A model generated the notes under the pieces. The model was not told the origin of the DNA. It saw nothing but the letters and a program-made list of their open reading frames with translations, and searched no databases. Of a DNA stretch of 49,823 bases, positions 3,308-24,281 are shown piece by piece. The stretch's first letter is position 1, and every line of letters begins with the position of its first letter. Source of the DNA: Bacillota bacterium (GTDB taxonomy: Bacteria > Bacillota_I > Bacilli_A > Izemoplasmatales > Hujiaoplasmataceae); the NCBI GenBank assembly GCA_029559915.1, contig JAKPZU010000158.1, positions 1-49,823 of the forward strand, written 5' to 3'. Made by a program: the position numbers and the translations under genes.

Positions 3308-3326
3308 TTAAAGGAAGGATTAAGTT

Positions 3327-20982: not shown

Positions 20983-23088
20983 ATGGCTAAAAAACTTGTA
21001 ATCGTAGAATCCCCATCGAAATCCAAAACCATATCCCGTTATCTTGGCAACGACTATAGTGTCGCTGCCAGTGTTGGTCATATCCGTGATTTGGCTACCA
21101 GTGGAAAGGGTGGGCTTGGGATTGATGTTGATAACGGATTCACTCCAAATTATCAAATTCTCGACAAGAAAAAGGGAGTTGTCAAAGAACTTAATACTCT
21201 TATTAAAAGTGCCAAAGAAATCTATCTTGCAACCGACCCTGACCGCGAAGGAGAAGCAATTTCCTGGCATCTATATGACACCTTGAATATCAAGGGTAAA
21301 GAGGTAAAAAGAGTAGTTTTCAATGAAATCACCAAAGACGCAGTCATTAATGCCATCAATCATCCACGAGATATTGATATGAACTTGGTTTCTTCCCAAG
21401 AAACCCGAAGGATGATGGACAGAATCATTGGTTTTAAACTCTCTACGCTTTTACAAGCAAAGATCAAATCGAAATCGGCGGGTCGAGTTCAATCCGCAGC
21501 CCTAAAATTGATTGTTGATTTGGAAAGAGAAATTGAAAAGTTCATTCCAGAGGAATATTATGAAATCTATGCCAACTTCGGCAAAGTAGAAACTCAATTA
21601 TTTAAAGTTAATGGAGAAAACCCCGATATCAAGACAGATGAAGAGGCCACAAGCTTAATCAATAATCTTAAGGATTATTTCTTGGTTAAAGAATTATCTA
21701 CGAAAGAGTCCAAATCCTATTCTAAACCAGCATTGACTACATCTGCCCTTCAGCAAGCAGCTGCGAATAAGTATAATTATACTGCGGAAAAAACGATGAG
21801 AATAGCCCAAGTATTGTACGAAGGGTTAGAATATCGTGGCGAAATGGTTGGTTTGATTACATACATGCGTACAGATTCCACTCGTCTGTCAGATCAGTTC
21901 GTCAATGAAACAAAGGATTTCATTAAAAACTCTTTTGGTTCAAAATACGTAGGTTTCTATCGCACACCAAAAAACAAAGAAAATGCGCAAGACGCGCATG
22001 AAGCAATCCGTCCTACTTCAGTTTTAAGAACCCCTGAAGATTTTAAAACTTACCTTGACCAACAGGATACAATAAAAAGTAAGGCTAAGGATGAAAAATC
22101 CTCCAGTGTGACTTCTTCGCAACTATATAAGATATATAAGTTGATTTATGATAAGGCAGTTGGTTCATTAATGAGTCCTTCCGTAAATGAAGTCACCACA
22201 CTCCTGTTACAAAACGAAAACACCATATTTAAGGCTTCTTGCTCAAAACCGCTTTTTGACGGGTACTTGAAGTTGACAAAAGATTATGAAGATAAAGAAA
22301 AGAAAACTTCAGATATTGAAAACTTCACTGAGGGGGATACCATAAAAGCTGATAAAATTGAAAAGAAACAACTTTTCACTACTCCTCCAGCAAGATATAC
22401 AGAAGCCAAATTGATTAAAGATATGGAAGATTTGGGCATTGGCAGACCTTCAACCTATGCTTCGACACTTTCGACACTATCAAATAGAAAATATGTTCAT
22501 GTTGAAGATAAGAAATTAATCCCTACAGACCAAGGAAAAATCACAATTGATCAGTTAAATCAGTTCTTCCATGATTTCATCAGTCCAAGTTATTCTCGAA
22601 AAATGGAAGAAACATTGGATGAAATAGCTGAAGGCAATGAATTGCAATTAAATGTATTACAGGACTTTTACAATTACTTTGAACCATTGGTAAATAAAGC
22701 TAAAATCAAAATGGAAAAATTGGCTCCTGTCAAAACTGGTGAAACATGTCCTAAATGCGGTTCGCCAATGGTGAAGAAAAACGGAAAATATGGCGAGTTT
22801 GAAGCTTGTTCAAGATTTCCGAAATGCAAATACATCAAACCGAAAGAAAAACTTCAACCTCAAGATACCACGGTTAAATGTCCAAGTTGCAACGTTGGGA
22901 CTTTAGTAGTTAAAGTCGCCACCAAAGGCAAAAATAAAGGCAAAAAATTCCTGGCTTGTTCAGAGTTTCCTAAGTGCAAGTATATCTCTCCGCTTAAAGT
23001 CGTAGATGAATTGTGTCCTGACTGCGACAACGTTGTGGTGACAGATGAACAGGGAGTTACTCGTTGTATAACAGGAAAAAAATGCTAA
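20983..23088 (+). CDS. topA: DNA topoisomerase I
   Basis: A type IA topoisomerase that relaxes negative supercoils by single-strand passage. The 701 residues show the TOPRIM domain (VIVESPSKSKTI at 5-16; ATDPDREGEAISWH with the acidic metal ligands). The active-site Tyr lies in GLITYMRTDSTR (Y294). Three C-terminal Cys4 zinc ribbons follow, starting CPKCGSPM, CPSCNVGT and CPDCDNVV; the last is compact and ends the protein. Monocistronic, with its own promoter. Confidence 0.96.
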   Translation: MAKKLVIVESPSKSKTISRYLGNDYSVAASVGHIRDLATSGKGGLGIDVDNGFTPNYQILDKKKGVVKELNTLIKSAKEIYLATDPDREGEAISWHLYDTLNIKGKEVKRVVFNEITKDAVINAINHPRDIDMNLVSSQETRRMMDRIIGFKLSTLLQAKIKSKSAGRVQSAALKLIVDLEREIEKFIPEEYYEIYANFGKVETQLFKVNGENPDIKTDEEATSLINNLKDYFLVKELSTKESKSYSKPALTTSALQQAAANKYNYTAEKTMRIAQVLYEGLEYRGEMVGLITYMRTDSTRLSDQFVNETKDFIKNSFGSKYVGFYRTPKNKENAQDAHEAIRPTSVLRTPEDFKTYLDQQDTIKSKAKDEKSSSVTSSQLYKIYKLIYDKAVGSLMSPSVNEVTTLLLQNENTIFKASCSKPLFDGYLKLTKDYEDKEKKTSDIENFTEGDTIKADKIEKKQLFTTPPARYTEAKLIKDMEDLGIGRPSTYASTLSTLSNRKYVHVEDKKLIPTDQGKITIDQLNQFFHDFISPSYSRKMEETLDEIAEGNELQLNVLQDFYNYFEPLVNKAKIKMEKLAPVKTGETCPKCGSPMVKKNGKYGEFEACSRFPKCKYIKPKEKLQPQDTTVKCPSCNVGTLVVKVATKGKNKGKKFLACSEFPKCKYISPLKVVDELCPDCDNVVVTDEQGVTRCITGKKC

Positions 23089-23115
23089 AGGGAAAAAGTT
23101 CATAAAAACATCACG

Positions 23116-23143
23116 TTCACTAACAGATAACTTGTGTTAGAAT
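23116..23143 (+). promoter_or_regulatory. Promoter of the candidate small RNA
   Basis: TTCACT (23116-23121), a 16-bp spacer and TAGAAT (23138-23143) preceded by TGt, forming an extended -10. Confidence 0.5.
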
Positions 23144-23147
23144 AATA

Positions 23148-23245
23148 CTACAGCTACTGATGTAGTTGAATTTCCCCTTAAGTGTCTATGACACACTTAC
23201 CCTTCCTTAAAATTCGTCTCACTTCCCTGAGACGAATTTTTCATT
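23148..23245 (+). ncRNA. Candidate small regulatory RNA with CU-rich anti-SD segments
   Basis: This roughly 95-nt stretch between topA and ftsY encodes no protein and has its own promoter and strong terminator. In order it shows: a 5-bp hairpin CTACA/TGTAG; single-stranded TTTCCCCTT (23171-23179); a hairpin around GTGTCtatGACAC (23182-23194); single-stranded CCCTTCCTT (23200-23208); and a 12-bp terminator stem whose loop is CTTCCC (23222-23227). UCCC/CU-rich loops that base-pair with Shine-Dalgarno sequences typify Gram-positive trans-acting RNAs such as RsaE/RoxS and FsrA. Homology to any of these was not established. It could instead be a structured 3' UTR of topA. Confidence 0.5.
23209..23241 (+). 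terminator. Strong terminator between topA and ftsY
   Basis: AAAATTCGTCTCA, loop CTTCCC, TGAGACGAATTTTT. It is one of the longest perfect stems in the window and may serve both topA and the candidate small RNA. Confidence 0.92.
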
Positions 23246-23272
23246 ATTAAGTTTAGCAATTTTTCAATTTTA

Positions 23273-23281
23273 TGATATAAT
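23273..23281 (+). promoter_or_regulatory. Extended -10 promoter of ftsY-ylxM-ffh
   Basis: TGaTATAAT (23273-23281), 28 nt before ftsY. Confidence 0.65.
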
Positions 23282-23309: not shown

Positions 23310-24281
23310 ATGGGTTTGTTCTCCAAACTTTTCAGCAGCAAGGAAAAGCGAAAAAAAGCAGAAAAATACAAAATAGGCATGATGAAGACAAGAAATCAAT
23401 CTTTGTCTTCTTTAAAAGATATTTTAGCAAACTCAAAAACTATAGACGAAGATTTATTCTCCAAATTGGAAGAAATTTTTATCATGGCTGATATTGGCGT
23501 TGATACAGTAGTGGAATTTGTAGAAAATATCAAAAACGTGGTAAAAAAAGAAAAGATTGAAAAACCTTTGGATTTGGAAAATATCATTGTCGATCAAATG
23601 TTTGAACTTTACCTGAAAGGTGAAGTCATCAATACCAATATCAAATTCAATAAAGACGGATTGACGGTCATCTTGTTTGTCGGTGTGAATGGAACGGGAA
23701 AAACGACTTCAATCGGCAAACTGGCCTACAGATTGAAAAATGAAGGCAAATCTGTGATGATGGCAGCCGGTGATACATTCAGAGCTGGGGCGATTAACCA
23801 ACTAAAAGTCTTCGGTGAAAGAGTGGGAGTAGAGGTAATTGCGAAAGAAGCGGGGAGCGATCCTTCAAGCGTTATCTTTGACGCCATCAAACAAGCCAAG
23901 AGCAAAAATATTGATGTTTTGTTGATAGATACCGCCGGTAGGTTGCAAAATAAAAAGAACTTGATGATGGAACTTGATAAAATCAATCGCATCATCAAAA
24001 GAGAGACCAATAACGAAGAATTCGAAACATTTTTGGTAATAGATGCCACAACAGGTCAAAACGGGTTATCTCAAGCACAGATATTCTCGGAAGTTACAAA
24101 TATCAATGGCATAATTTTGACAAAACTCGATGGAACCGCCAAAGGCGGAATTGTATTGGCGATCAGAAATAAACTGGGAATACCAATCAGCTTTGTCGGT
24201 CTTGGTGAAAAATTGACGGATTTGGAATATTTTGATATTGAAGATTATATTTATGGTCTATTCTCAGACTTCTTCGAATAG
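23310..24281 (+). CDS. ftsY: Signal recognition particle receptor FtsY
   Basis: FtsY docks the SRP-ribosome complex at the membrane. The 323 residues contain a short basic N-terminus (no long acidic A domain), the N helical bundle, and the NG GTPase. The GTPase shows GVNGTGKTTSIGKL (about 133-146), GDTFRAGAINQL, DTAGRLQNKKNLM and TKLDGTAKGG. The amphipathic N-terminal stretch GLFSKLFSSKEKRKK probably serves as the lipid-binding anchor. The ribosome site AGGTGGTGAA precedes it. It leads an SRP operon with ylxM (9-nt gap) and ffh. Confidence 0.96.
   Translation: MGLFSKLFSSKEKRKKAEKYKIGMMKTRNQSLSSLKDILANSKTIDEDLFSKLEEIFIMADIGVDTVVEFVENIKNVVKKEKIEKPLDLENIIVDQMFELYLKGEVINTNIKFNKDGLTVILFVGVNGTGKTTSIGKLAYRLKNEGKSVMMAAGDTFRAGAINQLKVFGERVGVEVIAKEAGSDPSSVIFDAIKQAKSKNIDVLLIDTAGRLQNKKNLMMELDKINRIIKRETNNEEFETFLVIDATTGQNGLSQAQIFSEVTNINGIILTKLDGTAKGGIVLAIRNKLGIPISFVGLGEKLTDLEYFDIEDYIYGLFSDFFE

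Follow-up and report, generated by a model that had tools for sequence, protein, structure and literature searches.

A structured small RNA gene with invariant C-rich segments between topA and ftsY of Izemoplasmatales and related families, with further copies on apparent mobile elements

Does the gap between topA and ftsY in the window (the whole analysed stretch of 49,823 nucleotides) contain a gene of its own, and if so, what might that gene do? Its two neighbours are housekeeping genes of an uncultured bacterium related to the mycoplasmas. The gap is bordered by topA, encoding DNA topoisomerase I (20983..23088; Pfam PF01131, PF01751 and PF01396), and ftsY, encoding the SRP receptor (23310..24281; PF00448 and PF02881), downstream of which an unnamed 108-aa ORF and ffh are located. 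It holds a real, conserved, structured, non-coding RNA gene of about 93 nt (23149..23241), recognized by the covariance models R1 to R3 and scoring 93.3 bits with R1. All features of this locus given here with coordinates are on the + strand. The assembly from which the window is taken (G000) is 83% complete with 5.5% contamination and consists of 430 contigs. The RNA locus is unlikely to be a contaminant, since it is also present, with 94% identity, in the close relative STE_170 (G005).

The RNA starts with a hairpin (23151..23168), the letters of which vary among homologues while its pairing is maintained. It is followed by a first unpaired C-rich segment, UUUCCCCUU (23171..23179), containing UCCC in 74 of 74 loci, a second hairpin (23179..23199) indicated by both fold and covariation, and a second unpaired C-rich segment, CCCUUCCUU (23200..23208), which contains CCC in all 74 loci and reads ACCCUUCCU or UCCCCUUCCU in nearly all of them. 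The strong terminator noted from the letters of the window was recovered as an intrinsic terminator (23209..23245) with a 13-bp stem-loop at 23209-23240 and the loop CUUCCC at 23222-23227. The predicted fold has a free energy of -29.0 kcal/mol compared to -9.98 +/- 2.55 kcal/mol for shuffled sequences (z -7.46; reached by 0 of 200 shuffles). The sequence-only reading had proposed three C-rich segments; all are present in the window and the first two are conserved, but the third, in the terminator loop, varies freely among relatives.

Discrete transcription from a promoter of its own appears probable from the DNA upstream of the RNA. The promoter-like site consists of a -35-like hexamer, TTCACT (23116..23121), which is replaced by TTGACA at the same place in several relatives, a 16-nt spacer and the extended -10 element TGTTAGAAT (23135..23143, with the -10 hexamer at 23138-23143). 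This element, TGtTAGAAT, had been pointed out before and is indeed present, but as a match of letters it is close to chance (three sites versus 1.6 expected) and thus weak on its own. Support for the promoter comes instead from the conservation of the -10 position over 76 homologous loci, 84% of which have at least five of six letters at the right place, compared to 48% after shuffling. ftsY has a separate promoter, TTAGCA-17-TATAAT (23253..23281), located 3' of the RNA terminator and kept in relatives. Directly 5' of the -35 hexamer lies a further box, TTCATAAAAACATCA (23099..23113; consensus TCACAAAANCWTCA), found only in family f1, in nearly all of its 16 loci, and degenerate in L015. It is possibly an activator site or an UP element. 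A search for a box regulon in zrk2 (G045) gave three other intergenic matches with one mismatch and no clear regulon; one intergenic near-match precedes a promoter at 366788 (- strand).

Within family f1, the RNA was found by blastn and model R1 in 16 of 16 genomes of the genera g1, g9 and g11, with R1 E-values from 1e-12 to 1e-17. These relatives belong to Candidatus Izemoplasmatales and include STE_170, UBA5732 and zrk2. The hairpin letters differ between genera, AACUAC/GUAGUU in g1 and g11 versus GCAAC/GUUGC in g9, while UUUCCC and ACUUACCCUUCCU are unchanged across all 16 loci. The R1 alignment of all 16 contains nine pairs with changes on both sides, its score being lowered because helix 1 of g9 is out of register. 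No match to the RNA was obtained in the other eight f1 genera, where readable topA-ftsY gaps consist of a bare terminator and the ftsY promoter; judged from these gaps, the RNA was presumably lost there. Blastn matches in these genera (E about 0.1-1) were discarded as short fragments, a readable gap there being without the RNA, and one R1 match (L047) was weak and looks like chance.

A longer form, stem-ACUUAUCCCUUACAUAGCAUG-stem-ACAUCCCCUUCCUUAA-terminator, first reached through weak R1 matches, is present in nearly all genomes of the sister family f3, also Izemoplasmatales. In the corresponding alignment (A5, model R2) 99.2% of the cells are paired and 13 of 24 pairs have changed on both sides; covariation amounts to 0.291 versus 0.139 for shuffled alignments and does not exceed 0.054 when partners are slid. 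Searches with R2 and subsequently R3 extended the RNA to the families f7, f10, f12 (many genera), f16 and f18, and marginally f22. In the broad alignment A8, 21 of 24 pairs have changed on both sides with a score of 0.740 versus 0.208 +/- 0.017 after shuffling, values that lean towards the structure because A8 was fitted to the covariance model. Altogether, the RNA is carried by 55 of 90 genomes in the order and by 82 of 395 in the class. A phylum-wide draw gave matches only in families already seen, and none were found among the genomes listed for the small-genome families f6 and f17. Family f12 is probably Acholeplasmataceae, with G235 presumably Acholeplasma brassicae. Both unpaired C-rich segments are invariant in the 74 loci while the stem letters change, and the unpaired segments, including ACAUAGCAUG of the f3 form, are fixed almost letter for letter over families. 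Since the unpaired C-rich parts are fixed while the paired parts drift under covariation, the former are probably the working parts of the molecule. The proposal of a separate small RNA gene in this gap is thereby sustained, covarying hairpins and two invariant C-rich segments being kept across families in the covariance searches of relatives.

The genomic position of the RNA is conserved as well. Among 76 distinct loci, 53 are located between topA and ftsY, three more adjoin one of these genes and 20 are found elsewhere. The order topA-RNA-ftsY is common to f1, f3, f7 and f12, a finding that speaks for a single origin of these C-rich RNAs rather than for convergence. Locus, architecture and shared motifs link the f1 form to the f3 form, as does model R3, which scored the resident f1 copies with 38-63 bits, two of these copies being part of R3 itself. 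A tpx-like gene lies 3' of the RNA, before ftsY, in two genomes (G264 and G235). In family f18, two copies lie approximately 430 bp apart on one strand (L252; G245:C60:51807-51918 and 52352-52437).

The RNA represents a new sRNA family of an already known kind. Rfam 15 gave no gathering-level match for the RNA of the window, of six f3 loci and of 14 further loci, nor did relaxed thresholds; elsewhere in those loci, only tmRNA, tRNA and c-di-GMP-I riboswitch were matched. A search of the literature for an existing description of the RNA found none. In being intergenic, about 100 nt long and conserved over genera, and in having an intrinsic terminator and several C-rich regions that are unpaired, it resembles RsaE/RoxS of Bacillales, the C-rich regions of which pair with Shine-Dalgarno regions (PMC4409812). 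In contrast to RsaE/RoxS, it is encoded between topA and ftsY and is not matched by the covariance model on the right strand (RF01820; best score 15.0 bits on the opposite strand versus a gathering score of 79), in agreement with the earlier impression that no homology to RsaE is visible. RsaE/RoxS is controlled by ResD/SrrA via an upstream site; for the RNA of the window, the conserved box 5' of the -35 hexamer is confined to f1. IsrR, an iron-sparing RNA of Staphylococcus, likewise has C-rich regions, three in number, which pair with Shine-Dalgarno sites independently of Hfq (PMC9410917). These likenesses of design aside, no relation to IsrR or to FsrA, the iron-sparing RNA of Bacillus, was seen at the level of Rfam or synteny. 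The best sub-threshold match on the right strand was RsaOG of Staphylococcus (RF01775), which has a hairpin, a CU-rich stretch and a terminator in common with the RNA described here; at 21.4 bits versus a gathering score of 50 and an E-value of 0.3, this match is at chance level and was rejected. Apart from 6S RNA, RsaE/RoxS is described as the only trans-acting sRNA that Staphylococcus and Bacillus have in common (PMC4409812), and sRNAs conserved across families are therefore rare in this part of the tree. The RNA presented here is compact and persists across many families at a constant chromosomal position, in lineages without detectable Hfq; it appears to be a core gene regulator that has so far gone undescribed. 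It could be tested in culturable Acholeplasma, if those are carriers as thought.

What the RNA does is best described, with slightly better than even confidence, as trans-acting regulation by a small RNA with its own promoter and terminator, the C-rich segments of which would pair with G-rich mRNA sites without Hfq. The two hairpins and the terminator would display the two segments in single-stranded form, and these would most likely pair, via CCCUUCCU or UCCCC as candidate motifs, with a limited number of mRNAs at G-rich sites, for the most part Shine-Dalgarno regions. Such pairing may block translation or alter mRNA stability in an Hfq-free manner. Pairing with mRNA is the first choice because the C-rich regions of RoxS and IsrR pair with Shine-Dalgarno sites, in the case of IsrR without Hfq, and no Hfq was found here (0 of 15 RNA-carrying genomes with the Pfam model, control genomes being positive; a homologue could be too diverged for the model). 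The base-pairing mode and the existence of mRNA targets are inferred, and blocking of ribosome sites is plausible by analogy with RsaE/RoxS, FsrA and IsrR.

Targets were predicted in the complete zrk2-like genome G045 (1486 called genes) and in 740 kb of G026. In both, predicted binding of the segments is stronger at ribosome sites than in coding sequence, which would hold for any C-rich RNA. Pairing with ribosome sites was mostly not above that of shuffled C-rich segments, segment 1 of the f1 form performing slightly better in G045. Among 428 ortholog pairs, ten conserved pairings of -12 kcal/mol or lower were counted versus 7.9 +/- 5.4 with shuffled segments, which is no excess. Long exact matches to ribosome sites are fewer for the f3 segments than for the average shuffle, and the best genome-wide non-self matches of the segments are within the range of shuffles. 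The 8-nt complementarity to the fusA ribosome site at 3311-3318 (AAAGGAAGG), put forward as an illustration, is real, but two related genomes do not retain it. Given these flat ribosome-site tests, the RNA likely either acts on a small number of specific targets or has a partner that is not a ribosome site.

The missing target signal also bears on a different function, in which the structured RNA binds a protein, a ribosomal component or another RNA via the C-rich segments, as a sponge or cofactor, and does not act on many ribosome sites. The segments, including ACAUAGCAUG in f3, are fixed more than anti-Shine-Dalgarno action needs, which speaks in favour of such a partner; sRNAs with large or conserved target sets, however, are also fixed in their seed regions, and no known partner is at hand. 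We regard this as possible, if rather doubtful. Less probable still is a cis-acting leader or attenuator that sets the level of ftsY by read-through of the terminator. It would account for the 53 of 76 loci directly between topA and ftsY and for the order kept in f1, f3, f7 and f12. Against it, the conserved separate promoter of ftsY follows the terminator, the MFE structure equals the centroid and the ensemble suggests no alternative anti-terminator fold, and the eight f1 genera without the RNA retain topA-ftsY where readable. Furthermore, the same core occurs with tpx before ftsY or in other places, 20 of the 76 loci adjoining neither gene; because copies sit away from ftsY, the RNA is not simply an ftsY leader.

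Two other accounts of the gap are very improbable. That it holds just the topA terminator and a spacer, the remainder being chance, would fit the other f1 genera, in which the gap has just a short terminator, but is contradicted by the covariation, the invariant segments, the conserved promoter and the copies at other loci. A short peptide gene, suggested by a short closed frame in some copies, is the least probable of all: the spacing of the two segments shows every remainder modulo 3, the closed frames range from 0 to 26 codons and no ATG is found at the corresponding place in f1. The peptide gene was rejected since the reading frame is not conserved between the segments.

The trans-acting RNA favoured here is also encoded outside its resident locus. 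Many of the 20 off-locus copies are located at an attachment-like end beside tmRNA or tRNA genes, namely beside tmRNA in L254 (zrk2, G045), beside tRNA-Leu in L241, L255 (G004), L126 and L381, and beside tRNA-Cys in L145 and L384. In L255, L381, L383, L384 and L386 the RNA lies just 3' of one or two large serine recombinases, assigned by Pfam PF00239 and PF07508 (L255, L384 and L386) or annotated as PHROG 'integrase' (L381 and L384). Placed in this way, the extra copies resemble cargo carried at the attachment end of integrating elements. L256 is also among the extra copies of this cargo type. One copy is located on plasmid CP017949 and another (L382:4328-4473) on the 82-kb IMG/VR contig IMGVR_UViG_3300039098_000035. 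Among the other genes of this phage-like contig are those for a recombination directionality factor, SSB and a clamp loader; its copy of the RNA is diverged, with other letters in the stems, but retains the fold and both C-rich segments. No match to the RNA was found in the INPHARED phages. The two copies in zrk2 differ, the resident one being of the f1 type and the mobile one of the f3 type, for which reason the latter probably originates from another lineage.

Genes for sRNAs on mobile elements are known from enterobacteria, where prophages encode sRNAs such as svsR (PMC12803456) and anti-sRNAs (PMC4104026). Unlike these, the mobile copies described here share their family with a resident sRNA of the core genome. 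Tentatively, and with somewhat less than even confidence, the RNA may be a core regulatory RNA of non-mycoplasma Mollicutes (Izemoplasmatales and probably Acholeplasmataceae and relatives) that was captured by mobile elements; integrative elements and phages would have copies of their own with the same C-rich seeds and may in this way rewire translational control of the host upon infection or excision. Its presence on phages and integrating elements would mean that mobile DNA shares, or exploits, a core sRNA. Near one extra copy, a c-di-GMP-I riboswitch is located (L258:1104-1179, G032).
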